This document shows, piece by piece, positions 12,810 through 44,180 of a stretch of 54,393 bases of DNA. Source of the stretch: Mesaphorura yosii (lineage: Eukaryota; Arthropoda; Collembola; Poduromorpha; Tullbergiidae); contig WIXG01000453.1 in the NCBI GenBank assembly GCA_009869945.1, positions 1 to 54,393 on the forward strand, in the 5' to 3' direction. Position 1 is the first letter of the stretch; each line of letters opens with the position of its first letter. Made by a program: the position numbers and the translations under genes. The notes beneath the pieces were generated by a model that searched no databases, had not been told where the DNA came from, and worked only from the letters and a program-made list of their open reading frames with translations.

Positions 12810-14493
12810 TTATTCATTAGCAGGAAGATTGATTACGAGAGTCCAGGCCCATTTGGATTGATTCGTATGCAGAGGTGGCAGTGTCACCAGGATTCCTGCG
12901 TTGGTCACGGCACTCCAATTCAGAAAAGTGCTTGGAGTTCCGAGGATTTCAATGGTTAACCCGGGCACTCCCTCCATTGCACCCAATTGAACTTGAGTCC
13001 CAGGCCAGCCTTGGGTGATGAAAGCGTACACTTTCGATCCGGATCGATTCTGTGTGTACCTGCATGGAAATAGACGGGTATCGCTTAATTTGCCAAACAT
13101 GTAAGCGGCGAGACAGAAGATCCAATTACACTCACCAGACGCCTGGAGTAATCGTATCATTCTGATGGGTCCACGTTGTCGTGTCATAAATTCCTTCGCC
13201 GTTGACTTCTAGCCACTGGCCCATTTGCAGCAAGCGTTCCTGGTGAATTGGCGGAATCATTCCATCGTGAGTCGGACCCACATTGACCAGAATATTTCCG
13301 CCACACGCCACTGTCTCTACAATCGTCCTCATCAGCTCCTCGGGCGTCAGGTAGTCCTCGAGGATCGCGTTTCGCCGGTGCGTCCATGCGTGACGATCGA
13401 TGGTCATTGCATTCTCCCATTTGTGCGGCTGAATAACTCCAGGATTGTGGCGATCATCAAAATTGTAAAATCCCCCATGCAGGCCACGAGTGTCCCACGC
13501 CCACCGATCGTTGACCACGACTTTTTCTTTGACGGGACTGTCATTGTAGAGCCAGGCGAGGAATTCCATCGACTGCCAGTACTCTTCAGGCGCTTCCCAT
13601 TCTCCGTCGCTCCAAATTATGTCTGGCTCATAGTTGTTGACCTACGGAATTAATTGCCCATCAAATTGCGTGCTAATGTCACAATTTTGTTGATGGAATA
13701 CACAACACGCAGTTTTAACTCACAACTTCTTTCAGTGCGGGAATCGACTTTGTTCTTGGGAAATTGTTCGTGGCGTAACCTGCATCTTGCTCGCGATCGT
13801 ATTCAGTGAACCATTCCAGGAGACTGTAATAAATTCCGAATCGGAGCCCAGCTTCGCGAACCGAAGTAGCCAAATCACCTGCGGGATTGAAACAATATCG
13901 GCATTACGATTAGAGCTTTCGGCTCCTTGCATGCCGCCTGCAGAAATAGCTTTCAACCTTACCAAGAAGATCGCGATGCGGCCCCACCTCGACTGCATTC
14001 CACGCAAATCCGTAACTATTCGGCCAGAGTGCGTATCCATCATGATGTTTGCTTGTTAGCACGACGTACCTGAAATTATGACCGAAATTAATGCAAAACT
14101 CTGTAGAACAAATGGTCAATGTGTGCCTTACTTGGCTCCAGAACGGCGGAACAGAGTCGCCCAATCGTTAGGGTTGTAAAACTCTGCCGTAAAATGCGGA
14201 GCAAATTCCTGGTAAGAGAAACCCGGCTTGAAGAAGTCTTCCATGAACTTTGCATGCGCTTCGCTATCGTGAGACTTCCAACTCTTCCAGAACCAGGCAT
14301 TGATGTACGCCGGGACGCTGTACACGCCCCAGTGTATGAAAATGCCCACTTTTGCTTCATCAAACCAGGCTGGAAGTGGACGGGAGTCGAGACTCTCCCA
14401 GTTTGCGTCGTATTGCTGGGCGTACGCCGCGCCAGCTGCCAACGCCAGGACAAGAGGAAGTAGTGCAGTCGACCTCATTCTGAATGCATGCAT
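12810..14493 (-). CDS. Alpha-L-fucosidase, glycoside hydrolase family 29 (copy 1, five exons)
   Basis: Five exons, 14493-14132, 14069-13963, 13878-13724, 13641-13136 and 13059-12810, give 459 residues. A signal peptide (about residues 6-25) is followed by [19 protein letters not shown], the family opening HWGVYSVP, and HHDGYALW in the substrate pocket. [15 protein letters not shown] follows, where Asp220 is the expected catalytic nucleophile of GH29. [10 protein letters not shown] and a C-terminal beta domain complete the chain. It should hydrolyse alpha-linked fucose from glycans, in lysosomes or secreted into the gut; secretion is predicted and the destination is inferred. A close paralogue lies immediately upstream on the same strand with two fewer introns. 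An alternative start at residue 6 would still keep the signal peptide. Confidence 0.95.
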
Positions 14494-14926
14494 GCATCGG
14501 GACTGACTGCTTTTATTGAAATTATGAATCCTTCTAATTAAATGACAAATTAAATGAGATCATCGACAGACATGAGTGTTTTGTTGAACCCAGTCACGTT
14601 TCCCAACTAACACTCTACATGACAGGTCAAAGATCATTTTGCATTGTCTCTTAAGCACTCAGCCTGAATTGGTCCTTGAGTCAAGAAATCAGTTCGTGAA
14701 TACACTCGGCCCGTTACCCAATTAAGTTGTCAAAACAATTCTCAGGTGACAATTTCCAACTAACAACCATTCTGATGAGTGGATACGTGCGCGACAGCGA
14801 CTGGAAAATAATACTTCAAAACATCAATCATGCTTCGCCTTTCCGATAATGAGGTAACAATTTATTTTTCAAGCCAAATACAGTACAGCCCCAAACACAA
14901 TCACTAATTTAAAGTAGAGACCATGC
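14494..14926. other. Spacer between the two fucosidase genes
   Basis: About 430 bases that should hold the promoter of copy 1 and the 3' UTR of copy 2. A TCAGT on the minus strand lies just upstream of the copy 1 ATG. Nothing else was recognised. Confidence 0.4.
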
Positions 14927-16453
14927 TTAACTCGTCAAGTGGATGACAAGTGTCCACGCCCACTGCGATCGGTTAGTGTGCAATGGGGGCAGCGTGACGG
15001 TGATGCCCGAGCCCGGAGCCGGGAACCAGTTTAATGGCGTGTCAGGAGTTCCAAGAATTTCGATTCTGGTGATCGGGAGTCCGTTAACTGCGCCCAGCTG
15101 AATTTCAGTTCCAGGCCAGCCGAGTGTGAACATGGCGTAGATCACAGTTTCAGCCCTGTTTTGCGTGTACCAAACCCCAGCAGTTGCAGTGTCATTCTGA
15201 TGGGTCCACGTCGTCGAATTATAGATGGCGTCGCCGTTGACTTCGAGCCACTGACCCATTTGGAGAAGGCGTTCCTGGTGGATGGGTGGAATCATGCCGT
15301 CATAAGTCGGGCCAATGTTGACGAGAATATTTCCTCCGCATGCGACCGTCTCAACGAGCGTCCTGATCAGCTCCTCAGGAGTCAAGTAGTCTTCGACATT
15401 CGCCTCTCTCCGATGAGTCCACGTGTGCTTGTCAATGCTCATTGCATTCTCCCATTTGTGCGGCTGGACAACGCCCGGATTGTATCGGTCGTCAAAGTTG
15501 TAGAAGCCGCCATGCTGACCGCGAGTGTCCCACGCCCACCGATCGTTGACCACGACTTTGTCCTTGACGGGACTGTCATTGTAGAGCCAGGCGAGGAATT
15601 CCATCGACTGCCAGTATTCTTCAGGCGCTTCCCACTCGCCATCACTCCAGATTACGTCCGGCTCGTATTTCGTTACCTGAATAATATTCACAAATTCATC
15701 TGCAAACGTTTCAACCGCAAAAGACAATTAATTTGACTGTAGACTGCTTACGAGCTCCTTCAGTGCAGGAATTGACTTTATCCTCGGGAAATTATTTGTC
15801 ACGTAGCCCGCGTCCCTCTCACGGTCGTATTCAGAGAACCATTCCATTAAACTGTAGTAAGTTCCAAATCGAAGCCCTGCCGCACGAGTCGCGTTTGCCA
15901 GTTCGCCTGTACAAGGTGTAAAAAATTACGTTCTCAGAAGCAGTCGCTTCAATGTTATATGCAAAGAATTTCACGCTAATTTACCAAGCAGATCGCGATG
16001 AGGCCCAACTTCCATCGCATTCCATGCGAAATGGTAGGTTGACGGCCACATTGCGTATCCTTCGTGGTGCTTGCTGGTCAGCACGACGTATTTCGCTCCC
16101 GATCGGCGGAAAATATTTGCCCAGTCGTCAGGGTTGTAAAATTCTGCCGTGAGGCCGGGCGCAAACTCCTGATACGTGAATCCCGGTTTGTAGTTGGCTT
16201 CCATGAACTTGGCGTGCCCTTCGCTGCCATGCCCTTTCCAGCTCAGCCAAAACCATTCGTTAATGTACGAAGGGACACTGTACACGCCCCAATGAATGAA
16301 GATGCCGACCTTCGACTCGTCAAACCACGTGGGAAGCGGACGGGAGTCCAAACTCTCCCAATTTGCATCGTACTGCTGGCCATGCGTGGTGTGGATCAGC
16401 GCCAGCGCTAGGGCGCTGACGAGCAAGAGCGTCGTGAGTGAAGCGAGCTTCAT
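14927..16453 (-). CDS. Alpha-L-fucosidase, glycoside hydrolase family 29 (copy 2, three exons)
   Basis: Three exons, 16453-15985, 15906-15752 and 15676-14927, give 457 residues. The protein parallels copy 1 along its whole length: signal peptide, [37 protein letters not shown] with the predicted nucleophile Asp220, [15 protein letters not shown], and the same C-terminal domain ending WAWTLVIHLTS. The two introns present sit at the same places and phases as introns 2 and 3 of copy 1. The introns that copy 1 has at the Lys-Tyr-Val-Val and Trp-Tyr-Thr junctions are absent here. Tandem duplication followed by intron loss or gain explains the pattern. The expected function is exo-fucosidase activity, secreted or lysosomal. 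Confidence 0.95.
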
Positions 16454-16887
16454 GATTATTACGATGTCAGTGTCAACGAGTGACTGAGTGCTTGCTGGAC
16501 TAATTTAGCCTGAAAATGATGCTTGGATCTGTTTACAAGTGGACATTGGACCATGAGTTCATTATAGCGAACAGGCATATCGTGAAATCGTCAGCCTTGT
16601 CAATCGCACAATAATTGTGATAAGCCAATATTGATGAATTGCATTGAATCACACAAGTTCTTTTGGGGGTGAATTGTTTTTCCAGTCGCATTGAGAAGAA
16701 ATAATTAAATTGAACTCGTAGTTCGTGGCCAAATTGTCAGTGATCTAATTCACTTCAATACCTCAATCAAGAGAATAAACACTCGAATTACGTGCGAATT
16801 ATTGCGACTTCGTGCCGGGACTTTTAATGAATAAGTGCTAAGTGCCATTTGCTGGAATCATGAATTCTGTTTATGGACGGATGCGGA
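16454..16887. other. Intergenic spacer
   Basis: Upstream flank of fucosidase copy 2 and downstream flank of the DM13 gene. No coding signal was recognised. Confidence 0.45.
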
Positions 16888-17632
16888 TCATGGAAAATAT
16901 CCACCAGTCGTATTCGCAGGAGCTGCGCTGGTGCACTGGACTGGTATGAACTCGTCGGCCAAAATTCTGTCCTGCTGCTTGGTACAGTCGTCCATTCCCA
17001 CATCGGGGCCCTGAAAAGTAAACAGGAGCGAGAGCGATTTTCTGTAGTAATTATCAAACTGAGAACAAGGTCAGGGCCATTGCTATTGCTTACTTGATAG
17101 GCGTCCAATGCCATTTCCTTTGCCGTCGATGGAATTTTCACGTAGCCGAACAAGTGCCCGTGCTTATAGCAGTAAAGTCCAATAAAATCAACGCCCTTCC
17201 AAGTTAAGGAAGACGGCAGGGTGAGAACAATGTCTTGACCGGTGTAAGATTCTGGTTTATGATGACACCTGCGAATTTGGTCAATAAAATTAACACTATC
17301 ACTTAATCGTAGAGTGAGATCACGTACTGCCCCTTCTCGTCGGGAATAATGACCGATTCATCCTTGGCACGATAATTGCAGCAGGGATTCGGATCATCCT
17401 TTCGCGTGGCATTGACATCGGCCATGAACCAGGCCTCCGGTCCTTTTCCATCGTAATTGAAGCCTTGAATCTTGATTTGCCGATCGTTCAGCAGCGTGCA
17501 CATGCCAGCCCGTGTCCCATGAGCATTGTAATTCCAGTTCCCGATCTCGACTTCGGCACAACGGGCAAGTGCGAGGAAGCAAAATGCCCCGAGCGCAAAT
17601 CCTGTGAGAAAACGGCTCCTGATTTCCATCAT
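16888..17632 (-). CDS. Small secreted DM13-domain protein
   Basis: Three exons, 17632-17328, 17268-17094 and 17010-16888, give 200 residues. After a signal peptide (about residues 8-24) comes a DM13 domain: IGNWNYNAHGTRAGMCTLLNDRQIKIQGFNYDGKG..AWFMAD, then TLPSSLTWKGVDFIGLYCYKHGHLFGYVKIP. In animals DM13 is best known next to DOMON domains, in Skeletor-type proteins and others, and has been proposed to act in redox or electron transfer through a conserved cysteine. Here the domain stands alone. A cysteine sits in the expected GLYCYKHGHLFG segment, and a short Cys-containing tail follows (MDDCTKQQ, PVQCTSAAP). The role is unknown; extracellular redox is inference. ATG-ATG at 17632 fits the signal peptide. 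Confidence 0.8.
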
Positions 17633-27982: not shown

Positions 27983-30311
27983 TTATGAATGACTGATTCG
28001 TCTCCCAAATGACTCTCTTTTCCGTGCGCGTGCATGCAACGGGAGCTCGGACTCCATCTCGTCTTCGTCCTGGGAATCCATTCCACCGCAACAGCCACAG
28101 CAACCATCCTCATCACACCACCATCGACTGACACGCAGATCACGCAAAACCCAACCGATACATTTCTTGAGAACGTAAAACAGAAATTCGAAGAAACTCA
28201 GAGCGCTGAAGCCAATCGTCAGCCCGAGCAGACTTCCGATTGATGAGAGCAAATCGGTTATGCCGAGCAGCCGTTTTCTGATCTTAGGATACGTTGTGTC
28301 TTCGCGAAAGTAGATGTGGATGATGGACAACTGCTTCTCTTTCCTAAATTGCAAACAAACATTGACCGTTGAGCACGGAACAACAAAACAACACTGAGAT
28401 GGCAATTGGCCTCATTACCAAAGCGTTGAATTGATCCGCGAATGAGCCCAAATGTTGACATCATCACGCACCGGTCTTGAGCTCGTCTCCGTCATGTAAT
28501 TGATATTATTGCACGTTGGTAGACACTGCTTGCAATAATCGTCCAGGAATTGTGGACTGTCTTGAAGCTGTGCATCCAAGTCCAGTGTGCAGTTGATTTG
28601 TTCGTGTGTGCAGAGCTGACGGTTGGGGACTCCTGTAATGGGCAAGGAATAAACGAAATTCGCGGTTTCAGTTTCGCGCGTTAAAAATTCCAACCTTGAA
28701 AATTCACTACTTTTTAGCGTCAGCAAACATACTTGGCATGTAGAATCGAGTGCAGTCGCAGAACGTGAACGTGATATTCGCATAGCACTCCTCAGCACAG
28801 TTCTGCAGAGTGTACTTTGTGAAGTATGCCAAGGTATACTCGCTGGAAAAGTAGCAGTTCCGGTCTTCCAAAGGCAAATCTCGAATTTCGTCGTCTGCTA
28901 AGGTCACATCAGGTCTTACTTTCAGGTATGTTTCCGTGCCATGCGGAATTGCGTCTCCAAACTCGGAGATTTGAGGAGAATCAATCGGCAGATGGACAGA
29001 GATCTGAAAGTCGAAGCCAAGAATGGCAGAGCAAGTTTCCAAAATTCTTTCCAACAAATTATGGCAGCACATTGCTGACTTTACCTGAAATCCGACCGAA
29101 TCCGACGCCGTGCAAAAGTACTCACGGATGTCGGGGTCGACGACGATTGAAAGACCATTCGTTAGTCCAGAGCTTCGAGCTCGTTTGGGGTACTCGGGCC
29201 CAGTCTTCGGAGCGAAGTCGTCATCGCCCCCGTCGTCTTTCAAGAATAGTGAATCGATATCGAATTTCCCTTGATTCCATTGTCGTGCCAGGTGTTCATA
29301 AGTCTCGGCCGTCCTGGGGTACTTTGAGAGCAGCGACTCCGGGGCCATATTAAATGAGCAACACTTGCCGTAGTCTGTTATCTGTTCATGGAACAGCTCC
29401 GCACAGGACTCCACCGGTTGACTCTCCCAAAGACACACCTTTATCATGTCCGTGCACGGCTGGGCGTGCCTCTGCAAGAAGGGGACGACGTCGAAAACCG
29501 GCCCGCCACGTTGCGTACCTTCAAACCGATGGTTGAATTCCCTTTCGATCTCGGCCCCATTCATGAAAAAGTTGAATTTTGAGCTGAAGCTGGTGGACGT
29601 TGCATAGCAAACGTGCTGAAGGTACGTTATATTGTTGAGTGCCTCCTGAATCTGCTCCGGGCTTAGGCCCCGTTCGGTCCCATTCGTGGCATTGATGTAC
29701 AGATCATACACGGCAGAGTAACGCAGGTTGTTGACGTTGCAGATCGTGACGGCGGGGAACGGAACGTCGTCGATGTCGGTCGCCTGCTCTGTGAAGGCGA
29801 CCATAACAGGGCTGCTCAGATATTTGTCCACGTTCCAGTAAATTAAATAGACGGAAGCGACGACTGCGCCTAGAAAGATGAGCCCCCACAGAATTCGCTC
29901 CAGAAAGTGTCCGTGCGGCTGTCCAATGTACTTGAGGCCGTGGATATTTGACGCGACACAGAATTCCATCGACATGCACTCATTTTGACACGGCGCATGC
30001 GAAGAAGACGAAGGCGGTTCCCACCAGCAGTCGTGCCCATAGTATGAATTACAGCAGAACTCTTCAGCTGGAATAATGAGGACGGAATCGTCTGCTCCTT
30101 GCCGTTCTTGCTTCTTTGTTTTGTGCTGTTGACCTTTCCTCTCCATTCTGACCGATTTCGACCAAAAGAGTCGGACTGAATAAACTGAATATGGAGCACT
30201 GGGCAGACTTCTTAAAGCCATTTTAAATTGAACTTTGAAAAATGCTTCTGGTTCCTGCATTTCGACGTCTACAGAGAGCCAATTCCAGGAATCTCCTTGC
30301 GGGCTTTGCAT
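27983..30311 (-). CDS. Pickpocket/ENaC-family (DEG/ENaC) sodium channel subunit
   Basis: Four exons, 30311-29085, 29003-28733, 28632-28419 and 28343-27983, give 690 residues. The long N-terminus has a CC...C...C cluster, then FCVASNIHGLKYI, the family motif before the first helix (LERILWGLIFLGAVVASVYLIYW). A large extracellular domain carries many cysteines and sequons, with FPAVTICN near its start and LQNCAEECYANITFTFCDC and YCKQCLPTCNNINY near its end. The second helix holds the pore motif GSLLGLTIGFSALSFFE, in which the GxS-type filter is GSL. The C-terminal tail is Cys-rich (WWCDEDGCCGCCGG). Insect relatives act in chemo-, mechano- and osmosensation. The 81-base intron at 29004-29084 is in frame and lacks stops. 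Confidence 0.9.
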
Positions 30312-31072
30312 TTCGACAGATAGGTCTCATACTTCGTTTGTTCATTAATAATTCAATAATCTGGCTCTCGTCACGCAAATGAGACGATACTTTCATAATT
30401 TCAGAACAGGCAAATTGTCAGGAATAACATGATAGTACGTTGGCTAAGCTTCCATTGGCTTAGCCAATGCCTATGGATATGCCTAGAGTTTATACTTCTG
30501 AGAACAGTTCGCTTGTATCGCTTGACCTTTGAGCGAGCGCGTAGCATTTAGAAAAGTACAATCTCCTTCAATGAGAAACCCATAAATTGTTTTGCGGACT
30601 GTGTAGAAGAAGCGTGGTCTGCAGTCGTTTGAGTTGACGCGAATGCGTGCGTGCGTGCGTTCGTACGGATGAGGCTTCGACCATCTTATTTAAGAGTTGT
30701 CTCATTGTGTTTGCATACTTATATGATTGATTCATGTTTAAAACAATACGTTGACAAGTTGTAAATTGTTTCCAGACAATTGTTCCTTAATAATTTATTG
30801 TTTCCAGAGAATAAATTGTTCTGAAAGAATTTTTTCCGGTAAATTATTCCCAGACAATATTGTTTCCTGAAACTTGTTCCTGTGGTGAATAAAGTGCACT
30901 TCCTGAAGAAGGTAAGAAATTGTGCTGAATTATTCGAGGCGCCATGTAATAATTCTTTCATTATTTCTGGAATCAATTACCCAGTTTCTAGTCTGGTTAG
31001 TGAGCAGCTCATACGGTCCAACCTCCGGCGAAGGCCTTAGACTTGAACGAAGACAAGATTGGCACCCACAAA
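30312..31072. other. Intergenic between divergent channel genes
   Basis: Spacer upstream of both the ENaC-like gene (minus) and the four-repeat channel (plus). It contains a short GTGC tetranucleotide run at about 30642-30660 and a degenerate TTGTTTCC-type repeat, listed separately. The channel frame is open back to the TGA at 31001-31003, so an upstream coding exon cannot be excluded. Confidence 0.5.
30752..30882. repeat. Degenerate AATTGTTTCCAGA-type short repeats
   Basis: Related blocks recur: AAATTGTTTCCAGACAAT near 30764, TTATTGTTTCCAGAGAAT near 30796, AAATTATTCCCAGACAAT near 30841, then ATTGTTTCCTGAAAC. Spacing is irregular, about 30-40 bases. It looks like a decayed minisatellite. Confidence 0.45.
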
Positions 31073-33292
31073 ATGTCGACTATGGGGTTATGGAAGACGG
31101 AGTACGAACATCTACTAGCCTACAAGCGAAAATACTTTCCAAATCTATGGAACGAAATCAGAGAACTGATTTGCCTGCTCACAGTCATCCTGAGCTACCT
31201 CCTCGTCACGTACATGGCAGTCTTCGACTACCGCCACGAAGAAAACATTCCGATTCTCATACTCATCTACTCTTGCGACGTCGCCTACATCATCGACATG
31301 CTCATTCGGTTCGTCGAGAGCAGACGGAGAACGAGGCGTGACCTCGCCCACGTCGCGTACAGCCAGGCAATAGCCAAGTATCGCCAAAGTGACTCACCAC
31401 CGCCTTCAATCCCGAACAATCTAGGCATAGGCATAGGCATGGGTGTGAGAGTGTCCAGAGCCGAAAGATGGATAGCACGCACTCGACATTTGGTCTCCAA
31501 ATCATTTTGGAAAAAGTACTCTGAATTCTTCTTGGATCTTCTCTCGATTTTGCCACTCGAATTGTTCGTTCTTATCATTCAGCATCGAGTCAGTAAGAAG
31601 GTTTTCCTGATCGCGTTCTGTTGCTTGAAGCTAAATCGTCTGCTGAGGCTTTACAGGATCTCAAATTACTATCGTAAGGATTCAAAAAATCGCAATTCGC
31701 AATTAATTATTCACACGGCTGATTAATTTGAACGGATTGTCTCCAATTTCAGGGCGGAAAACGCACGAAATTCTTGTCAACTTCACCCGCCGAGAAATAA
31801 TGACCATGTCAGTCTGTTTTACGTCCTTCTTGGTGATTTTATTTCATGGCATCGCTTCAATGTGGTTTCGCCTCTCGTGTGACGGTGTTTATGAAACGAA
31901 CGAGCAAGTTCAGTGCTACGAACTGGGCGAGCCGACGTACAACTACAGCTTGAGTTTCGAAATGAGCGGGTATCGACCTCGAGTCAATCCGGAAGAAGGA
32001 GCATGGGGCATTTATGTCAGCCAAATTCATTGGGCAGTGACTTCATTGCGAAATTCTGGGTCAGTTTCGCTTTGTCTAGTTTTCCAGGCTCCTTTTTCAC
32101 ATATTTCCTATTTCCTCTTGCAGAAATCGTTACGACCCGCCTGTCACTGCTCCTCAACTTGTCTTGGCCATGTTTATCCAAGTATTCGGATTTCTGATGT
32201 GCACTGGAATTCTGCTGGTCGCCATTTACGTGTCCAGCCAAATTGACCTGAAGCGAGCGATTTTCTTTCACGAAGCGTACGGCGCATCAGCATTTGTGGT
32301 AATTAAGCATGACATTTCCTCACCCAGGTGGCTTTTGTCACTTCACTCACCCGATTTCACCCAATTCCCTCCCTCCCTCCCAATTTTCAATACCGACCTG
32401 AATTATTTTTTCAGAAACACTTTAAAATGAGTGGAACAGTCATCAAATTCCTGAACACCTGCTTCAACTTCATGTGGGAACAAAATCGTGCTTTCACCGA
32501 CCACAACATCCGCCCAATTCTGTGTAGGACGATGAAGACCAAGATCTTCATGTGTGTCTTCGAGCCAATGATTAAAGCAGTAAGTTTTCTCCACCATTTG
32601 CCTTATCGCGGTGTACCGTGCGTTGTTGCAATACGAAATTGAAAATTGTAATTGCAGTCGGAGCTTCTTCGATGTTTTTCGCGGGAGGAGCTTGAAAAAC
32701 TTTCCCTTGACGTTCAGTACCGGCATTTCTTCGCCAACGAGTTTATCGTGCGCCCCAACACGGTCGGCCACTACGTCTTCTACATCATTCAGGGCAGCGT
32801 CGAGGTGATGAGCGACGAAGACCCGACGCACGCTATCCTCACACTGAACAGCGGGAGCCTCATCGGCGAAGTGAATATCGTTTACCCGACCCGACGCTTG
32901 AATGGTGTCAAAACACGCACGCCCTCCGACATTTTGATGCTACCGTTCGCGAGCGTGATGAGCATCGGCAAATTCGACCCGGAGCGACTCGATCAAATGA
33001 TGACAATCGTGAAGAATCGAATGAATTGGCTGGCGGAGGAGAACGAGAAGAAGTTTAAGCAAGAGGTCGACTTGGTGCAGGCACAGCAGACGGAGGAGGC
33101 AAAGCGAAAGAAGTCGCTGGGCCTGCCAACTTCCGATGAAGGTGAAAATGGCTCGAGTCATAGTGTGATGGATCCGATGGAAATTCTGCTGTATCGAAGA
33201 AGTAAGGCAATGGCGGCGCCCAGGATGTCGGATGCTGGCCACCCCCCTGCAACTGCAGCAGCGCCGAAGAGAGTGAGCTCGGGCCCAACAAG
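31073..33292 (+). other. Channel repeat I (residues ~1-628): S1-S6, degenerate pore, cNBD
   Basis: S1 is at about residues 32-51 and S2 at 60-80. S4 carries KLNRLLRLYRISNYYR. The pore loop is AVTSLRNSGNRYDPPVTAP at about residues 295-312; it keeps the Tyr-Asp and prolines but lacks GYGD. S6 is LVLAMFIQVFGFLMCTGILLVAIYV. The cNBD begins SELLRCFSREEL and its phosphate cassette reads LIGEVNIVYPTRRLNG, which keeps the conserved Gly-Glu and an Arg. A Lys/Glu-rich linker and a Pro/Ala-rich tail lead to repeat II. Confidence 0.75.
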
Positions 33293-36200
33293 GTAATTGA
33301 CAATTTCGCTGAGCCTAGTCCAATGATTTTTTTTTACCATGTAAGCTCTGAGTTTTCGATTATACTGACCTATTCGCATGTTTTCTGTCAGGAAACCGAA
33401 AGGAGCACAATTCATGAGCGTTCTCGCCTGGCTAAATTTTTACAAGTGGGAAAGACGGGCGAAACGGCTCACGAAAAGTCAGAAGTACGCCGAGATTTAT
33501 GCACGAATGCAGCCGAAACTCAGAAACGAAGCGTCTGTCAAAATGTACAATGTGATTTCGGTCAGGCTTTGATTACCTAACCGCCTTTAATTATTAATTA
33601 GTTTTCAGTTAGCTTTCCTCTCGCTTTTTAGACAATTCCTTCCATCCCAAAGTACGTTTGGCGCTCGGTCAGAATTTCCAGGGACTCGAACGTCTTTGCG
33701 GTGTGGGAACTCTTCGTGATTCTTATCGTCGCCGTCCACGCATTCGTGTATCCGGTCGAGATTCTGATTGCAGTGAGTGATCCGAAGACCTGTGGTGTGA
33801 TCAACGTGATTGTGGAGGTTGTGTTCGGCTTAGATCTTTTCCTGAGATTATTCGTGTTTCTGGACCCAAATGGTGAGCTAATGCATGCAATGAAGAAGAC
33901 AAGATCAGCAATACATTCAATTCTTTAAAATTAACTTCGTAATTCTTAATTTCTCGTGCTAGAAATTGTTCCCGTGCTCTCAAGTCGTTGGGCGCACATT
34001 TGCCGCGAATTTAGAACGTTCAACATCTGGTTTGACATTATTCCTGTACTTCCCATCCACCATCTTGTGGGATTGGAGCTCGGGCGAGGCGAATACAGAA
34101 GCTACATGTACGCAAGAATGCCATTGTATTTGTTCAAGTCCATCAAAGTGAGTATTTGCAATTTAATTGCATTAAGAAGGCGTTTACGACTGTGTACACA
34201 TGAGTTTTCAAACGCAGCTCTTCCTGTTTATCCGAAAATGGGAGAACAACGTCCGAATCAACGTGACTGTCGTCCGCACCTTCAAGCACCTCATCTACAT
34301 GTCTGTTTACATCGTCTGGTTGGGCTCGACATACACGTACTTCGGCTGCCCGCAGTACCCAAACTGCACCCACGCGACCAAGACGGACCACCACGCCTTC
34401 CACCCGACAGCGTCCGTCCCGCACATCATAAATCAGACGTGGGTGGACAAATTCCTGAAGCAAAGCAACGCCAACGCCAATGCCAATGCTTCTCTGTACC
34501 GAATCGATTACTTTCCCACCGCATTTCCACTTTCAATGTTTTGGGCGGTTTGTGCAATATTCGGCATTCAATTTGACATTGCAACTCCGTCCACGCGTGA
34601 CGAAACGGCGCTGCAGACGGCTGGCTTATTCTGTGGGTTTGCGCTGATTATTTACTTTTGCTCGGATTTGGCGGCGACTCTCGCTGGGCTCGTCGAGAGC
34701 AAGTGCGTGGCAAAATTCCGAGAATTCACCGCCCGCCAACTGCCATCTTATGCAATTATACTGAATTTTCTTGGCCAATTAGGATAAATCACGTGGACAA
34801 ACTGGTCTGGATCAAGAATTACATGGACGAGCAGCTCATCGCGCTGAAGCTCATCGATCGAGTCACACATTACCTCACCCTGCAATGGAAAGCACTCCGA
34901 GGGCTCAGTTCAGAAGCGAGCAGCGCGAGCAGCAGCAGCAGCGGCTTCCTCCGCGTATCGCACACGATGAACACCGAACTCATGGTGCACATCGTTGGCG
35001 AGTGCTTGCTGAACGCATACTTCTTCCAGAACATGGACACGGACATTCTGCGCCGCTTTAGTCTGTCTGCGATGGTCTCCGTGATTCCACCCAATGAAGA
35101 GATTCTCAAGAGCGGGGATCTCGTCGCGAGGATGCACATTATACGAAGGGGCTACGTCCAAGTGTACTACGGGGACACGGACATCAAGATGGACGTGCTC
35201 ACGTCGGGCCAGAGTTTTGGCGAAGTCAACATGCTGTACGGGACTCCGTCTCGAGTGACGTGCCGGACCATCACGTACGCGGAGATCATCATGTTGGACT
35301 CGAGATCGTTTGAAAGAATTCTTGCGCTCTCGAAAATCAATCAGGACGAGCTCCGGAAGTTGAGAGCGGACAAAGAAGCGTTGGCGGTGAGAACTTCTTG
35401 AAGGATTTGAGTTTATGCCCGCGAATTTTCGAAATCGTGCTTCCTTGCCTTTGCTCGCAGAAATTTAATGCCACGTTGAACTCAGTCGTCGACACTTTGT
35501 CCGAAACCGAGCTCAAGGAACGCAAATACAGGGCACCTTCAGTAGACGCATCGCCGTTCATGCGGCGTGTCCGCAAGCAGGAGACGCGTATTAATAGCCG
35601 TGGCCTTCCCGTCACAGCTACACCCCTCGAGCCACATGGGCCAGGCCGGTCACATGAACAAGTCTACAACGAGCACAGGGTTTGCCAGTGGCTCCACGAC
35701 CTGCTTCTGCAACACACGTACCTACTCGACAGCTTCTTTCTCCAGTGCTGGGAACACTTTCGCGTCCTGACCATCTGCCTCACGATTTTCGTCGTTCCGC
35801 CCATCGAAGCGTACCCGGACTTCAAGGAGGAGGCCCGGCATTACGTTTACATTCTGGACGCGTTCACATTCATCGACATGTACATCCGAGCACACATCGC
35901 GTACTACGACTCTCGGACGCAGGAACTCATTAGACATCCACTAAAAACTATGAGACACTACTTTGCGTCGGGTTTTTTGGCTGATTTGTTGGGGAGTCTG
36001 CCTGTTTATGCAGTCATTGACATGGCTCTTGCTGGGTCATCATCGTAAGTTGATGGAATCTGAACTCTCATTACTTTAGTTAGCGTGATTTCCAACGTTT
36101 AGTGAATTTTAGATGGGACGCGACTCTCCTCGCCTTTTTTCTGCGGCTGAATAGACTCGTGCTGATTTATCGAGTTTTTGGATTCTATCGATACAAAAGT

Positions 36201-39200
36201 CAAGGCCGAGCCAGCATGGGAATGCCGATTCGAAAGTAATTTCAAGAATTAAGAAAAACAAGTGCTTGAATCCTGCCGTGTGAAATATGAGGAATTCTGC
36301 ACAACTTGTAACCTAGGATGATGATGCTCCTTCCTGTACTCGTCTTCCACGTTCACATTGTCGGCTGTATCGCGTCTGTGATTGCGTGTCCTTCAACAAT
36401 GAAAGCGTGGGACGACTTGCGTGTGACGACCCCGGACGCAAGATGCTACCCGAATTCTTGGGTCACAAGCAGTAAACACAAGGAGGCAGTCAACCCATCC
36501 AGCTTCCAGCTGTACGTCTTTTCGTTTTACTACATCGGAACCACATCCATCGGCCTGGGTTTTGGGGACTTCAAGCCTTCGAACCAGCAGGAGCTCATGT
36601 TCGCGACAGGCCTCTTCTTTTGCTGTAAGTTGGTGGGTCGCGGATTGATGCATTTTTACCCTCACGTCGAATTTTTTGGCAAAATATCAGATATTTTTAC
36701 CCTGACATACATTTTGGCGATATTTGCTGGAAGCCGAAGCCATACTGACTACAAATTGCTCAGATTTCAGCAGCACATGAAGTATTTGGTCGGGTTCATC
36801 GCACACGAGAAGCTGGACACTAAACTCGCGGCGTAAATCGCAATTCGCAAATCTTTACTTAATCTTGTCCGTGTGCAGTTTTGTCTAATGTCGTAGTTTT
36901 TAGCCGAATCATCCGCCACTACAATTATCAATGGCTGCGGGCGCGTGGAGTCGAGCCACAGCGTCTTTTCTCAAATCTATTCCCAGCACTGCGGAAGGAA
37001 GTCGCTCTCGACGTGTTTGAAGACGTGTTCGGGGAGGTGCCCGAGCTGAAGGGCGTCTCGGGCAGTTTTCTCCGAACGATTTGCGTGCACATGGTGCCAA
37101 CGTACTTTCTGCGCCGTGACGTAATTGTGCGACGCACCGACATTTGTGACACAATCTACTTTGTGTTTCGTGGCAAAGTGGCTGCGTCGAAGGACGACAA
37201 CGACGAGGAGACTTTCATTGAGAAAGGAGGCATTATCGGCGTTCTCGACCCAATCCTTAGGAACCCAGTCTACGACAGAACAATCGTCTCCATCACAAAT
37301 GTGGATTTGTTTGCGATTCCGAGGAAAGATTTCATTCGGGCACTACAGGCATTTCCTGAAGTCTGTTCTCGATTTAACGCCCGAAACGTAAGAAGACACA
37401 AAACACTCTGCCATTTAATTTTAAATATGCACTCTGCTCTGCAGTTGGTGGAAGCTGAAGAAGTTGAGGAAGTCTCTGCGCAGTTGGCTGTAATTAGAGC
37501 TCGACTCTCGGCACGCTCTTCAACGGCCGTGGTGGTGGCTGCGGAGGCGGAGCAGGAAGAGGTGGTGGTTGTCCCACGTCCACTTCCACACCCGCGCCTA
37601 CGCTCACGTCACGTGTCCATAAGCATAGAGGTTCAGACATTCCCAGAAGACCTTGACTCAGGTCAGAGCCGTCAAGGTCAAGGACTATCGAACGCCAAGT
37701 CGAAACCCCACGTCGAAATGAAGGCGCGCCGGAGCCGGAGTTACCGAGATTTGCAACGCGAGCTGCATTCCGAGGATTCATTTAGTGAATTGAGATCACG
37801 GTACTCGGACTACTCGGTTTCGATGGCCCTTCTGTAAGTTGTAAATTGCATTACACTCGATTAGCTCAAAAAATGGCAAGTCGGTTGCAAGCTTCGATGA
37901 CTAATTGAATTCTTCATCGTTCACCCACTGCCACTTTATTCAGGGAAGATCAGGAGCACAACATGAAGTATGACGAGGACGTGATCTACGCGCAGTCAAT
38001 CCTGCCCGAGTCCCTGTGCGTGCGAGTTTTGACGGTGCTCGTCCTCATCTCCGCCTGCTGTAGTGCGTCCTTGGCATTCTATCAGTACACTTTCGAAGTA
38101 AGTCAACCACAACCTTTTAAGCCCTGGAATTTGAATAAACATTTCCTTTGCTCTTCTTTTCAGGCGTACAATCTTAGCTTTTTTGTCGCCGGCTACATTT
38201 GCGACATAATTTACCTCATCAAGATGTGCATGGGCTTCCGAGTTAGCTATTTCAACGAGCAAGGCGACGTGATTGTCGATTCGACTGAGATTTCAAACAA
38301 GTGAGTTTAAGCCATGCTCATACCGGCGAAAAGTGAAAGGTGAAGGGCGAATCATCATACAGGCGAATTGTCGATTCATTGCTTTCAGATACCTGAGCGA
38401 GCTATCCGGCTTCACACTCGACTTTTTCTCCACATTCCCGCTAGAAGTATTTTCTGGCGTGTACGCGCTTGCAAAGTCGCAGGGCGGCGACTATCGGACA
38501 GTGTTTTACTGGTGGGCGGCTCTGCGGCTCAATCGCCTGATTCGTTTGGTAACTTCAAATGAGAATTGGCTAATTGTTTATCACATCACATGATTACATC
38601 TGACCAGATTCACGTGGGACTCTTTTACAAACGGCGCACGAGTAGATTTCTCGTCAACCTGATCCCCGTCAAGCTGGAGCGTATCCTCATGAGCACGCTC
38701 ATGTACATTCATTTCATGGCCTGCATCCTGCACAGCAACACGGGCTTCCTAAACCTGAAGAGCCCCTGCAATTGCACAGCTCGGCCCACCTGCACCACGG
38801 ACCTCGAACACGTGGAAGTGTGGTACCAGACTAAAAGTAAGCCACCGCCTCTCCGCCCGCATTCTTTAGAAACACAGAAAATTGACATTGCTTTCCTTGC
38901 TTTTGCTTGCAGATGTGGGCACCGAAGGCCAAGGAAGCCATCTGCCATGCCACAAGTACACGCTGAGCCTATACTTTATCATCACAACGTTCACCACCAC
39001 GTCGTACGCGGACGTGTTCCCGATCTCTGTCTTCGAGATGCTCTTCACGACCTTCCTCGCGTACTCGTCTAAAGTCTGGCTGTGTCTGGTGCTCTTTGAT
39101 ATCATGTCGGGACTGCAAAATAGCGTCGACCTCAGCTATCACTTGGCCGCAGACGGAGTGCTGGTACGTAGGCCCGTTTTACGACATGAAATTGACTACA

Positions 39201-40208
39201 ATTACTACAATATAAATTATTTTGGCTGGTCTTCTCTCGCAGATGCTTTACAAAGAATACGGAGTCCCTCGGCCGGTCCTTTCGAAGGCCGCCGACTACT
39301 TCACATACGCCTGGACACAAAATCATGGCGTTCTGTTCCCGGAATTCTTGGCTCGTGCTCCCGCCTGCTTGAAGATGGATATTTGCACAACGATTTATGG
39401 CGAGCACTTCCGAAAGGTGAGCGGAGCCTCGATTCCAAGTATATTATTTATTAATAGCACTACCGACGGGTCACAATTTGTTCTTTTACTACTTTTGCAG
39501 AGTTACCTTTTTCGAAGCATGCCGGACAGTTTTATACGTCAAGCCTCCATTCGCCTGAAGCAGGAGTGGATCATGGCTGGCGACTACGTCATTCACCAGG
39601 GCGAAATTGATGACAAGCTTTACTTCGTGCATCACGGCATAATCGCCAACACCCGAGTAGTGCCGCCGAAGCCCGGGCAGGAGCAGGAGCCGTTTTCGGG
39701 CCAACGCGGCGTGGGCATTGACTTTTCCACGGGACGAAGGAGCAGCAGAAAGCGACGGAGCCTTAACCACGGCTTCATGTCACGGTCGAAGCATTTCGGG
39801 GAGGCGCAAGGACTCCTTGGCTCCCTGCCACACACGAGCTCCTACCGCGCCGAGACGAACGTGGACGTCGTCAGCCTGTCGCACGCCGACATCGAAGACC
39901 TGTTCAACTTCTTTCCTGAGTACCGTCACACAATAATGCGGCGATTCCGGGGGAAGTACACGCCGACCAACTCGACAGAAGGGCGGGGCCGCCACAGCCA
40001 CGGCCACGGCTTGGATGAGAGTGTGCAAACAAGCCAACGCCAACGCCAAGGTAGTGAACCAGGCTCCGACGGCCGCGGGGGTGGAGGTGGCAAATCTGCA
40101 GGCTCAGGAGTGGAGACATCAAAGTACGTGACAGTGGTGGAAGACTTGGACGGAAACAAGTTTGCCGTGCCACAAGATGACTCGATACTTGGACAAATAC
40201 TGCAATGA
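31073..40208 (+). CDS. Four-repeat cyclic-nucleotide-gated channel (CNGK/tetraKCNG-like), 2430 aa
   Basis: Twenty-two exons join with every phase consistent: 31073-31673, 31753-32059, 32124-32298, 32415-32579, 32658-33292, 33392-33560, 33632-33872, 33963-34147, 34218-34702, 34783-35386, 35461-36044, 36113-36235, 36317-36624, 36879-37387, 37445-37833, 37944-38097, 38164-38300, 38389-38548, 38608-38836, 38913-39163, 39243-39416, 39501-40208. The product has four blocks, each with S1-S6, a pore loop, a C-linker and a cyclic-nucleotide-binding domain (cNBD), listed separately. This concatenation is known in CNGK channels of sea urchin sperm and zebrafish; ordinary CNG, HCN and EAG channels have one block per subunit. 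A plasma-membrane cation channel gated or tuned by cGMP or cAMP is expected. Poly(A) signal: 40360-40365. The start is uncertain because the first S1 comes only about 30 residues in. Confidence 0.82.
33392..35386 (+). other. Channel repeat II (residues ~629-1189): S1-S6, degenerate pore, cNBD
   Basis: S1 is WELFVILIVAVHAFVY and S2 is INVIVEVVFGLDLFLRLFVF. The S5-pore turret is long and contains an Asn-Ala run near 34466-34493. The pore loop is FWAVCAIFGIQFDIATPS; residues about 941-946 (FGIQFD) replace a potassium filter. S6 is TAGLFCGFALIIYFCSDLAA. The C-linker includes HVDKLVWIKNYM, which resembles CNG C-linkers, and a Ser-rich insert. The cNBD cassette is SFGEVNMLYGTPSRVTCRT, with Gly-Glu intact. 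Confidence 0.75.
35461..37833 (+). other. Channel repeat III (residues ~1190-1827): only repeat with a GFGD filter
   Basis: S4 reads FFLRLNRLVLIYRVFGFYRYKS. The pore is FYYIGTTSIGLGFGDFKPS, with GFGD at about residues 1506-1509, a canonical potassium-type filter. The cNBD runs from about HMVPTYFLRRDVIVRRTDICDTIYFVFRGKV. Its cassette reads GIIGVLDPILRN..DRTIVS, so the conserved Glu is replaced while the Arg-Thr remains. A long linker rich in Arg, Ser, Glu and Val (SRSYRDLQREL) joins repeat IV. The intron at 37388-37444 is 57 bases, in frame and without stops. Confidence 0.78.
37944..40208 (+). other. Channel repeat IV (residues ~1828-2430): SYAD pore and C-terminal cNBD
   Basis: S1 is LCVRVLTVLVLISACCSASLAF. 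S4 is FYWWAALRLNRLIRLIHVGLFYKR. The pore is YFIITTFTTTSYADVFPIS; residues about 2084-2087 read SYAD, a GYGD-type filter with both glycines replaced. The cNBD starts SYLFRSMPDSFIRQASIRLK. Its cassette, HFGEAQGLLGSLPHTSSYRAET, follows a long Arg/Ser/Gly insert. The tail is His-, Gly- and Gln-rich and ends in VTVVEDLDGNKFAVPQDDSILGQILQ. Confidence 0.75.
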
Positions 40209-40432
40209 CGATCGAATGCCAATGGAGCCGAAGTACACGATTACAAATACACTATACCACTCAAAGCCCTCAAAACCTCGCCAATTGTGAAAAACAAAAA
40301 AGCCCAGGTTTATTAAGGCTTTACCAAAAGACAATTTGGTCGAATTAACAAATAATAATAATAAAGCTGAAGCGTAATTTGCATTCAGTTAACTAATTCA
40401 TCAGTGAATAAACAATAAACACCATAATCATA

Positions 40433-41090
40433 AGGTGCGTTCAATTAAATAGGCTCAAGGGGTTTATCCCCTATAATTCGTGCATGTATTCACTTAAAAT
40501 CTTGAAACTTTACACATATTCGCAGTCACAGACTGCATAAATGTACCAACTTTGGCCCTTATCTGAATAACGGTACAGCCGATATGCCAAAAAAGAATGA
40601 AAAAGTGGTGTTCAAGAAAATAGACTCACTGCCCGAAATTAGGCTTTAAGTCACTCTCATCTAGTTCAGTCACTGTTTCAACGTCGTTACCCGTGCGACT
40701 CATGGGAAAAGCAACAGGTTTGACTGGGACCGAGCAGGGCCAAATTGATGTGCTTCATGAGGTTGGAAAGTCCCAACGTGAAATCGCAGCGTCCATCAAC
40801 AGATCACAGACAGTTGTGTCGCACTATCTTGGCAACGACGATAATTACGGTGAAAATGCAGGTCGCCCAACAAATGTTACGCAACATCATCAACGAAAAA
40901 TTGTGAATCTAGCACAAAAACAATTCTCTGTGAGAGAAATTGCCGACCATCGTGAAAGCAAACTCTCAATTGGCACGATTCATGCTATTATTGACAAGTC
41001 CGGTCAGCCGCCTTTGAAGGAGTCGCATTTGCTTGGCAGACTGGACTAGCGACTAAAAAAACTCTTGAGTTTATTTAATTGAACGCACCT
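40433..41090 (+). mobile_element. Non-autonomous Tc3-like (Tc1/mariner) DNA transposon, 658 bp
   Basis: The element begins AGGTGCGTTCAATTAAATA and ends with its reverse complement. The first 19 bases of the inverted repeats are identical, and a further CTCAAG matches after two differences. TA dinucleotides flank both ends (40431-40432 and 41091-41092), the target duplication of Tc1/mariner elements. It contains an open transposase N-terminus but no catalytic domain, so it is an internal deletion derivative that would depend on a transposase supplied elsewhere. The near-perfect ends and intact frame suggest recent activity. Confidence 0.9.
40702..41049 (+). CDS. Transposase N-terminal DNA-binding fragment (Tc3-like), 115 aa
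   Basis: The frame from the ATG at 40702 encodes a bipartite helix-turn-helix region. The first motif includes TEQGQIDVLHEVGKSQREIA and INRSQTVVSHYL. A GRPT-type hinge follows, then a second motif with NLAQKQFSVREIADH and SIGTIHAIIDKSGQ. This matches the paired-like DNA-binding half of Tc3-family transposases. Full-length transposases run to about 330-350 residues with a DDE catalytic domain, which is absent here. The frame ends with a few residues (HLLGRLD) at the deletion junction next to the right inverted repeat. Confidence 0.8.
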   Translation: MGKATGLTGTEQGQIDVLHEVGKSQREIAASINRSQTVVSHYLGNDDNYGENAGRPTNVTQHHQRKIVNLAQKQFSVREIADHRESKLSIGTIHAIIDKSGQPPLKESHLLGRLD

Positions 41091-41269
41091 TAACATAAAT
41101 ACCATTTGTACACAAAAATAGCAACTTTTGCTTTACCGCTGACGTCAAGTCAAGTTTTAGTTGACAGTTGCTAGTCTTCAAAGGTCGCAATTACTAATTT
41201 GTCTCTTCAGTAGGATTCCTAGTGGACATTAGCTACGTGTATTAGAAGCAATAATTTTTGGATTCTACA

Positions 41270-42800
41270 TTAAGTCGTCTGCGAAACGCCGACACCGAAC
41301 GAATGTAGATGCTGAAGCTGGAACTGGATGACTAGAATCGTGTAAGTCACGCTGAGCCCGACAACCTGCCAATGAAGTCAACATTCACTGCGTAACCCAG
41401 AACTAGGACTTATTCGTATCTCGTATTGACTGTGTTTAGTGCTTACAGTGCCCAGGAACCCGTACGTCATGGAGAAGAACCCTAAACCCTTGAACGCAAT
41501 CTGCTGGGAGGTCATGTCCATGTGAAGCGCGGTCATTACTGCCGGGGGCAGGCTGCGCTGCTTAAACAAATAAATCCCAGTGCCAGAGTCCTCGTAAACT
41601 TGGTTCGAGATCCAGTTATAGAATTCATCGGCCTAAATAATTAGGGCTTGTGTTAATCGCTAGGTCGTGAGATTTGTAATTTCAGTATTCTGTAGAATTA
41701 ACCTTTGCTGTGACTTCGGCACACAGAGTCAGGATGCCATAAATGGAGACTGCTTGAATGGTCATCAGGAGCAGACTTGCAATGAAATGCGTCGGATTCT
41801 GGACGGTCATGTCGAGCAGGAGGATGCCATTCCAGAGCGGATGGTAAGGAATGACGAGAACGATGAGGGAAAAGTAAAAGTATCCAAACGACGAATTGCA
41901 GAAGGTGATGACACTCTTTATCTTGCCGTAATACCAAAGAACCTGGGCGTAAACTGCTGTTGACACTGCATCCGGGGTGTCTCGGCCACCGTCGCCACTG
42001 CCCCTGCAAACTTGTAGAAGGTCAACCATCAAGTGTCGAAAGGAGAGTGGCTGAACAATCATGATGAACCGTGCAAAATAAAGTATGAAAAAGTTCGGAA
42101 ACAGCATCAGAACATGAAACGCCGCCTGCAGAAGCCAAAGCATAGAGTTCACCGAGCTCCAAGACAAGGGCCCTGGCTCCTTCTTCACAAAATAGAGCGT
42201 CTCCGCTTCGTGCCCGTTTCCCATCAAGTACTTGATCACGTCGGAGTCGTGCAGCGTGAAGTAGTAAAATTGCTCGCAAATGAAGAGGACGATGAAGAAT
42301 ACCGTGACGGACCTTTTCAAGATTGAAATCTACGCACGAAAGGATAAAATTATGTCGGAGCTCGAATCCAAGCGGGATAATTAAACTACCTTTCGCAATT
42401 CGGTCCTGACTTTTCCACTACTGAGTCTAAAATGAATCCTGTTGACTGTGTTGTTCAATTCAGCGATTCTCTTCTCGTTGAACCACACCGTATACATGTA
42501 AATACATACCAGGATGACTTTTGTAAACTTCTCGACGGTGCTGACTTTGTTGGCGAGATTGCTGCCACTAAAACGTGATGATGTCCCTGAAACTGACGCC
42601 CAGGCGTTGGCAAGGCCTTCGTAAAGCACGACCACGTGAACCACGACACAAGCGACTTGATGGGCACGACTCTTTATCATTTGCTGTCCGGATTTTCGAG
42701 GCGGACTCCGCCACGGAGTGCAGAGCAGGTAATAACCAATATTGTGCCCTAGCGTGTAGTAATCCATGTAATACGACTCGGCGGTGGCGGTGGGCGCCAT
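41270..42800 (-). CDS. Gustatory receptor (arthropod chemoreceptor superfamily), 439 aa
   Basis: Four exons, 42800-42390, 42329-41703, 41632-41447 and 41365-41270, are joined by phase 0 introns, as is usual near the C-terminus of arthropod gustatory receptors. The protein has about seven hydrophobic helices, an intracellular N-terminus and the signature TYTILVIQF (TYhhhhhQF) in the last helix, followed by a 16-residue tail. Segments such as FYNWISNQVYEDSG and MDMTSQQIAFKGLGFFSMTYGFLGT closely parallel the receptor at 49836-51708 (FYRWISS, MDMYSDQIALRGGSGFFRMNYRFFGT), so the two belong to one subfamily. Ligands cannot be predicted. Family members are seven-pass ligand-gated cation channels with reversed topology. 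Confidence 0.85.
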
Positions 42801-43457
42801 GATGCTCTGACACTGACCAGGTCTTGCTATCGTCGTTGTCTAGTTTTTCTTTTATTTATCGGACATGAAACACAGTTCGTCGTTCGTGCAAAAGATCATT
42901 CATTGTTTTTGCTGCAGAAATTAATTTGAGCATGCGACACGCGAAATGCCAGCCAATTACAGTTAATTAGACTGTAGGCCAAAAAAGGTCGCTGGCAAAT
43001 TACAGAGAATTGCAAAGCATAAATTGCATGGGGAGTGCCATAAAGCCAGGACCAAAAATAGCAAATTTGCTTGCTTCGGAGAATTCCCGATATTCCGACA
43101 GAAAATTGATTAACTGATGATTGCTGATTACATAATGATCATTATTACGGCTGATGCACTACGCAGGAGGCCGGAAGACGACTTCCCTCAGTTTCGTGTA
43201 TTTGCCTTTGGTTTACTGCACTAGTGTAATTGTGTACATTCTCCATCCTTATCTTGTCCTGTCTTATCAGGTGTACCCATTCATTCTACGTATTGATTAG
43301 CTAGCTGACTGGCACCTTTTTACAGGAAACTGTGTCATCAGCCAACCAACACGTTAAATTGACTAATTCGAGAGGTTGTGTTTTTGTGCAGACGTTAACG
43401 ATTCGATTTTCTCTTTTAGAATAGTGAAAACACTGAAAAGGAGCTAGAAGCTAGAGA
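42801..43457. other. Intergenic between divergent genes
   Basis: AT-rich spacer between the gustatory receptor (minus) and the four-pass protein (plus). No coding or RNA signal seen. Confidence 0.45.
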
Positions 43458-44180
43458 ATGGTGGAAAGATCACAAACTCTCGCTGGGATCTCAGTGGTGA
43501 GCCCTGTACTTGTATTTTAATTAATGCTGTTTATGTTTCCGATCACTTTAATTACAATAATTCATTTTATACCACTTTTACAGGCATTGGCGTGCTTGCT
43601 TCTGGTAACGGCATCTTTATTTTTGGACGACTGGCGAAAGGCGCAGACCGCTTGCAAGAAAATTGCCGACATTTTTGGTGAGCTTCAAGGCGGTTGCAGA
43701 AAGCCAGCGTTTTTTGTCTCTGGAGCGAGTCTGGGAATAATTGCGGCAGTGATTCATATTCTGTCCAGCGCTCTGGTGAATTTTGCAAAGAAATTCGCTC
43801 AATTCAGTATTAAAATTAAATCTTCACCTCTTCTCTATTTAATTAATTGACAGGGCTTTCTCAAGAAAACAAAGCTTTGGCTCTCCATGCAAATTGTCGC
43901 CGTCTTTTTCGCAGTCATCGGCTTGACCCTCACAATTATTGAAAAAGGATACGACATTCGATCGGACAAGGACAGCTACCCGGGGAGTCCGGGCTTGATT
44001 GACGCTGTCACAGTCTCGGGATTCCGAGGCTTCGCGTTTGTTGTTGCGTTGAGTCTTGATATACTTTTCGTTCTGGTAGCTGTGGCTGTTATTTATTGCA
44101 ATTGCTGTAGCTGCTGCGGAGGCAGTGAGCTCCGGGCTAAGTCCTGGTCGTCGGGCGCGTTCCAGGCGGTTCCGACCTAG
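43458..44180 (+). CDS. Four-pass membrane protein of unknown family, 185 aa
   Basis: Three exons, 43458-43496, 43584-43775 and 43854-44180, join in phase 0. Hydrophobic segments are LACLLLVTASLFL, SGASLGIIAAVIHILSSAL, IVAVFFAVIGLTLTII and GFAFVVALSLDILFVLVAVAVIY. A cysteine cluster (CNCCSCCGG) follows, suitable for palmitoylation, then a short tail. The layout recalls claudin-, MARVEL- or tetraspanin-like four-helix proteins, but I see no diagnostic motif (no CCG in a large loop, no W-GLW-C-C). The first exon encodes only 13 residues, so an alternative start is possible. No function is assigned. Confidence 0.65.

Follow-up and report, generated by a model that had tools for sequence, protein, structure and literature searches.

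The question raised by a 54,393-nucleotide stretch of DNA from the springtail Mesaphorura yosii (GenBank assembly GCA_009869945.1, contig WIXG01000453.1) is whether a gene with four concatenated channel repeats, each carrying a cyclic-nucleotide-binding domain (CNBD), should be called a CNGK channel. The stretch that was analysed, hereafter the window, is the whole of contig C453 in a 93.0 Mb assembly with 1127 contigs. An earlier note, made from the letters of the window alone, had given the gene this label. Part of the label stands: four tandem repeats of six transmembrane segments (6TM) plus a CNBD are found in one polypeptide, and the gene is kin to a CNGK-type gene. The filters of three of the four repeats are altered, however, and the ligand contacts of CNBD III are lost. 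The window gene is not filed here as a CNGK because the GYG/GFG filter is missing in three repeats; judged by its predicted protein, it is an asymmetric paralogue of a CNGK-type channel. Coordinates of the features are collected in Table 1.

The coding sequence of 7410 nucleotides, on the + strand, runs from an ATG at 31073 to a stop codon at 40206-40208 with zero internal stops. Its 22 introns measure 57-116 nucleotides each and are GT-AG throughout; retention breaks the frame for 14 of the 22, and an in-frame stop lies inside 12. An ab initio splice model recovered 21 of the 22 introns in one run and 20 in another, which is a consistency check only, as the model was trained on the window gene itself. 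The gene ends proposed earlier (31073 and 40208) and the inter-repeat junctions (33292/33392, 35386/35461 and 37833/37944) are reproduced exactly in the rebuilt model; the accompanying counts of 21 introns and 2430 residues were slightly low, the rebuilt values being 22 and 2469. Pfam placed cNMP_binding above its cut-off in all four quarters of the protein and Ion_trans above cut-off in repeats II, III and IV, whereas repeat I scored 16.5 bits, below the cut-off of 25.

Two proteins with E < 0.001, P0001 and P0002, were found with the window protein (4171 candidates scored). P0001, a 2195-residue product of the springtail Allacma fusca, is 38% identical over 70% of the window protein and 42% identical in an end-to-end alignment. 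It contains four cNMP_binding and four Ion_trans stretches, and a motif in the linker between repeats I and II, QFMSVLAWL, is identical in the two proteins. Since P0001 was annotated independently, the joined four-repeat gene does not depend on the splicing of this study alone. The open frame, the Pfam domains and the jointly annotated Allacma protein bear out the earlier claim of a single gene with four S1-S6 plus CNBD repeats. Its placing of the gene in an arthropod is most likely correct, the nearest relatives of the window protein being springtail proteins. Among the best candidates scored, no further copy of the window gene was found in the assembly: of 22 matches, 21 were to the window itself and the other was to an HCN-like gene.

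A search of the same assembly for CNBDs gave 24 matches, two of which fell on contig C353 within a second four-repeat CNBD-channel gene (L009 and L010). The model of this gene is ab initio, with 2447 amino acids in 37 exons, a doubtful N-terminus and one exon forced in. Its orthologues are P0005 of Allacma fusca (2307 amino acids) and P0006 of Orchesella dallaii (2274 amino acids); their identity to it is 54% and 52%, respectively, over the stretch used in the search and about 37% over almost the full length. When P0005 was searched against the assembly, 24 matches were obtained: 20 on C353, covering all four repeats, and three in the window, the last being in the HCN-like gene. The C353 gene, P0005 and P0006 are called type A below, and the window gene and P0001 type B, so that type B is represented by two sequences. 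No type-B sequence from a springtail beyond Allacma was among the protein-search matches, which does not imply absence elsewhere. The two types are about 20-22% identical in register, and identity within a type is about 40-42%. The predicted CNGK-type gene of this genome is the one on C353, not the window gene. The other CNBD loci in the assembly were considered as candidates for additional four-repeat genes; judged by eye, they are PKA-R-like, NTE-like, RapGEF/Epac-like, HCN-like and CNG-like, and Pfam was run on the CNG-like model only.

The two types differ most plainly in their pore filters. A G[YF]GD filter occurs in all 12 type-A repeats (three proteins) and in two of the eight type-B repeats (two proteins), in both cases in repeat III. 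The filters of the window gene read GNRY, QFDI, GFGD and SYAD from repeat I to repeat IV, a feature absent from the earlier note; the GYG/GFG filter is present in one of four repeats in the window gene and in P0001, against four of four in C353. The repeat I sequence N-S-G-N-R-Y (N-C-G-N-R-Y in Allacma) aligns gap-free with T-I-G-Y-G-D of the bacterial channel SthK and has Arg where the second glycine of the filter would stand. The stretch around it, SLRN[SC]GNRYxPP, is identical in the window gene and Allacma except at two sites. Intron position gives independent support for the homology of this filter: one and the same Gly codon (GG|A) is split by an intron in both genes, and the next codons are AAT CGT TAC in the window gene and TAC GGC GAT in C353. 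The repeat IV filter is T-T-S-Y-A-D in the window gene and T-T-A-Y-G-D in Allacma. Across repeats I-IV of type B, the second filter-glycine position is occupied by R, D (N in Allacma), G and A (G in Allacma), and the Thr position of the TVGYG consensus by N, G, G/S and T. A six-frame scan of 30801-40400 gave no alternative exon that would restore a K+ filter, G[YF]GD in a pore context being present solely at 36558. Between the two type-B proteins, identity over a 19-residue pore stretch exceeds that of the whole repeat in repeats I (63% against 43%), III (58% against 45%) and IV (63% against 49%). The corresponding type-A stretches, C353 compared with Allacma, are 74, 57, 53 and 63% identical in repeats I-IV.

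The ligand-binding sites are asymmetric as well. In the phosphate-binding cassette, we take the classical pair of ligand contacts to be the Glu of an FGE motif and the Arg of an RTA motif; they were read from alignments with the HCN-like and CNG-like channels of the same genome and with SthK. The Arg of the RTA motif is also given as a ligand contact in PMC4749565. The Glu and Arg pair is found only in CNBD III in type A (three of three proteins) and only in CNBD I in type B (two of two). In type B, CNBD II keeps the Glu and has Ser for the aligned Arg, with an Arg directly after this Ser in the window gene only; CNBD III has lost both contacts (in the window gene, V for Glu and no aligned Arg); CNBD IV keeps the Glu and has His for Arg. 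CNBD I is predicted to be the only type-B site able to bind cAMP or cGMP. The sea-urchin CNGK is reported to be gated by a single cGMP through CNBD III (PMC4749565), a role that the third CNBD of the window gene, judged from its residues only, would not share. The zebrafish CNGK shows that a CNBD may look intact and yet fail to respond to cyclic nucleotides (PMC4749565). A predicted structure of CNBD I from exon 5 alone had a mean pLDDT (predicted local distance difference test score) of 44.7 and was not used.

Types A and B most likely derive from one four-repeat gene, because their repeats are matched in trees, their introns are shared and the opposing grouping is rejected. Two trees were built under a mixture model, one with 27 rows (eight EnaX and Mmetsp rows dropped) and one with 35 rows (eight oomycete rows added); P0002 and sea-urchin or fish CNGKs were in none of the trees. 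The five springtail sequences were grouped repeat by repeat in the 27-row tree, with support of 85/80 for repeat I, 96/94 for II, 97/96 for III and 100/97 for IV. The same matching-repeat groups had support of 95/87, 99/96, 100/97 and 99/97 in the 35-row tree. All 20 springtail repeats formed one group apart from the HCN and CNG rows of the same genome (99/96 with 27 rows, 97/95 with 35); the repeats of the window gene are not nested among single-repeat families (HCN, single-repeat CNBD channels). An initial tree (LG+G4, 35 rows) matched repeats II, III and IV and placed type-B repeat I beside repeat IV (86/62), with a long-branch warning. A clade of all eight type-B repeats was rejected by the approximately unbiased (AU) test (p 0.00015); each AU test compared two trees and assumes that the group was named beforehand. 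Eleven of the 22 introns of the window gene are common to it and the predicted C353 gene, within two columns and in the same phase, and they number 3, 2, 2 and 4 in repeats I-IV. Rotated controls shared 0.47 introns on average, and 11 was not attained in any of 2000 rotations. The matched repeats, the shared introns and the AU test speak against a recent tandem array, the alternative named in the earlier note, and against independent concatenation. In the mixture-model trees of individual repeats, a kind of tree suggested in that note, each repeat groups with its springtail type-A match, the comparison covering type-A proteins of springtails only; no sea-urchin or fish CNGK sequence was among the protein-search matches, for which the word filter was narrow. 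The springtail repeats pair I with IV in the trees, which differs from the published pairing for CNGKs of I with III and II with IV (PMC7576140).

We favour, at a probability of roughly 45%, the reading that type B forms a pseudo-tetramer gated by cyclic nucleotides, with repeat I as its ligand sensor and a pore for mixed cations. The four repeats of the polypeptide would fold together around a single pore. The residues at the second filter-glycine position would then form a ring R, D/N, G, A/G, which is not expected to allow the usual coordination of dehydrated K+, and type B would probably pass mixed cations rather than pure K+. One cyclic nucleotide bound to CNBD I would open the channel, as one on CNBD III does in the sea-urchin CNGK. 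Several observations weigh against this proposal. The pore of repeat II is conserved no better than its repeat between the type-B proteins (42% for both), and the S6 stretch of repeat I is at 35% against 43% for the repeat; a loss of conduction would fit this too. Between the window gene and Allacma, two sequences in all, repeats II and IV differ (GFND and AYGD in Allacma), and the filter is partly drifting. Selectivity is not predictable from primary sequence (PMC7576140), an Arg at the filter might just as well shut the pore, and the sperm setting considered below has gene content as its sole basis.

The main rival reading, possible if somewhat unlikely, is that type B is a non-conducting pseudo-channel that still senses voltage and cyclic nucleotide, its Arg-bearing filter shut, and either serves as a sensor or regulates another channel, for example type A. 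The Arg of filter I, the three altered filters, the unremarkable pore of repeat II and the below-average S6 of repeat I would all agree with this; a shut pore, on the other hand, would need neither the above-average conservation of pores I, III and IV nor the GFGD of repeat III, which is kept in both species. An ordinary K+-selective CNGK in which altered filters are tolerated has in its favour the four-repeat plan, an ancestor in common with type A and its K+ filters, and the GFGD of repeat III, but is made quite improbable by the residues at the second filter glycine (R, D/N, G, A/G) and at the Thr of TVGYG (N, G, G/S, T). Loss of the canonical filters and of ligand contacts in CNBDs II-IV could also mark a gene decaying into a pseudogene. 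We consider this very improbable given a 2469-residue frame open across 23 exons, an Allacma orthologue at 42% identity that shares filter I, and pores that are better conserved than the repeat as a whole in three of the four repeats. Hardly credible is a gene model in which several one-repeat genes were wrongly joined: the three inter-repeat junctions were predicted from sequence alone, but their introns are 74-110 nucleotides long, the Allacma annotation is joined too with the I-II linker motif conserved, and each repeat has its own counterpart in type A, with shared introns in all four.

If type B is a mixed-cation pore, it would depolarise and the K+-type channel A would hyperpolarise. With less confidence, we suggest that a single messenger acts on both channels within one kind of cell. 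This may be the sperm cell, given that SLC9C1-like exchangers and a CatSper-beta homologue are also present in the genome. The latter is a CATSPERB_C match at C66:52010-52294 (L027; E 8e-27) that runs over stops, these falling outside the predicted exon. Two adjoining SLC9C1/sNHE-like exchanger-type genes with a voltage-sensor-like domain lie at 49500-66499 on the - strand of C247 (L025, L026); one of them, checked by Pfam, has Na_H_Exchanger, Ion_trans and cNMP_binding. Springtail sperm are flagellate. In sea-urchin sperm, sNHE and CatSper act downstream of CNGK (PMC6660944). Judged by title, no paper among those listed in a literature search dealt with springtail sperm.

Comparison with known channels places type B between several designs. 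Like the CNGK/tetraKCNG channels of sea urchin, zebrafish, Ciona and choanoflagellates, the window gene has four 6TM-CNBD repeats in one polypeptide and a ligand response predicted to run through one CNBD; unlike them, it has one canonical filter where they are described with GYG/GFG filters (PMC4749565), and the intact CNBD is I instead of III. The four-repeat plan is known from K+ channels of sea-urchin sperm. Springtail type A is homologous to type B in register across the four repeats, pairs with it repeat by repeat in trees and has introns in common with it; it differs in its G[YF]GD filters (12 of 12), in the Glu and Arg of CNBD III and by an identity of about 20-22%. Of 12 oomycete proteins among the matches listed, seven were examined (P0007, P0008, P0010-P0013 and P0015); these are four-repeat CNBD channels, and their filters are G-[FY]-Y-D, G-Y-G-D, G-S-[RK]-E and F-Y-G-D in repeats I-IV. 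All seven resemble type B in having one canonical filter and, in one repeat, an R or K where the second filter glycine would stand; unlike in type B, the basic residue is in repeat III and the canonical filter in repeat II. Springtail repeat I and oomycete repeat III as one group were rejected (AU p 0.0045), and filter asymmetry with one basic residue apparently arose twice, in oomycetes and in springtails, by convergence. In the passages available from PMC7576140, oomycete CNBD channels are of the two-repeat kind only.

Animal CNGA and CNGB are, like type B, CNBD channels whose filter has left the TVGY/FG consensus (PMC7576140), but each of their polypeptides carries a single repeat, with a TIGE filter, and neither feature is seen in the window gene. 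The CNG channel of the same genome lies outside the springtail four-repeat clade in the trees. The filter ring of Nav channels is DEKA and that of NALCN is EEKE. As in type B, these are covalent four-repeat channels whose filter residue differs from repeat to repeat and is basic in one; they lack CNBDs and belong to another family, so the likeness is one of design only. A broader proposal, unlikely to hold in its entirety, would have the fourfold symmetry of a K+ filter broken, in a pseudo-tetramer gated by cyclic nucleotides, to give a ring of mixed charge (R, D/N, G, A/G) that is to CNBD channels what DEKA and EEKE are to Nav and NALCN. In springtail sperm, one cyclic nucleotide would drive both a K+-type channel A and a mixed-cation channel B, through CNBD III and CNBD I respectively, and the basic residue at the second filter glycine would have been invented independently in oomycetes.

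CNGKs have been described as having four nearly identical repeats without specialisation, unlike Nav and Cav channels (PMC6259924). Deviations from the TVGY/FG filter in CNBD channels are reported as rare and individual, with a clade-level change only in animal CNG channels (PMC7576140). Type B would depart from both published statements, that of repeat uniformity in CNGKs and that of a filter change limited to animal CNG channels. Types A and B in one genome would form a before-and-after pair for a covalent tetramer escaping fourfold symmetry, and CNGK-type channels would be placed in hexapods. No arthropod CNGK was found in passages from the CNGK literature, nor in searches that joined such channels with arthropods, insects or Collembola; most subscription papers lay outside the range of these searches.

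Table 1 Positions of the four-repeat channel genes and their parts. Positions refer to the window unless a contig is named.
Feature	Position	Strand	Remarks
Type-B four-repeat CNBD-channel gene	31073..40208	+	23 exons, 2469 aa (amino acids)
Repeat I, about aa 1-545: S1-S6, C-linker, CNBD I	31073..33044	+	
Repeat I filter N-S-G-N-R-Y, aa 301-306	32052..32133	+	split by intron 2 (32060-32123)
CNBD I phosphate-binding cassette, E487 and R496	32868..32897	+	sole type-B repeat with both contacts
Exon 6 start, I-II linker with QFMSVLAWL	33392..33433	+	identical in Allacma P0001
Repeat II, about aa 690-1185	33647..35374	+	
Repeat II filter G-I-Q-F-D-I	34563..34580	+	G-I-G-F-N-D in Allacma
Repeat III, about aa 1275-1742	35716..37462	+	
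Repeat III filter G-F-G-D	36558..36569	+	sole canonical filter
Repeat IV, about aa 1880-2395	37984..39983	+	CNBD with insertion relative to Allacma
Repeat IV filter S-Y-A-D	39002..39013	+	A-Y-G-D in Allacma
Second four-repeat CNBD-channel gene (L009, L010)	C353 about 7642-17503		G[YF]GD in four of four repeats

Other features of the window and of the assembly were recorded. Directly upstream of the channel gene, a DEG/ENaC-type reading frame (ASC, E 1e-63) occupies 28710-30326 on the - strand, and a fragment of a Tc3-type transposase helix-turn-helix lies just downstream at 40624-41046. An 825-residue frame at 4397-6871 has a weak Lig_chan match below the cut-off (E 0.004) and is perhaps an ionotropic receptor. 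On contig C477, four Ion_trans matches in a row at 39937-43575 on the - strand, in open frames of about 1310 amino acids, apparently represent a channel of four domains whose gene has few introns or none. Genes judged by eye to be HCN-like are L005 (C21), L015 (C136) and L016 (C998), two of them in tandem on C998, and their filters differ (TLGH, LGYGF and LGYGL).

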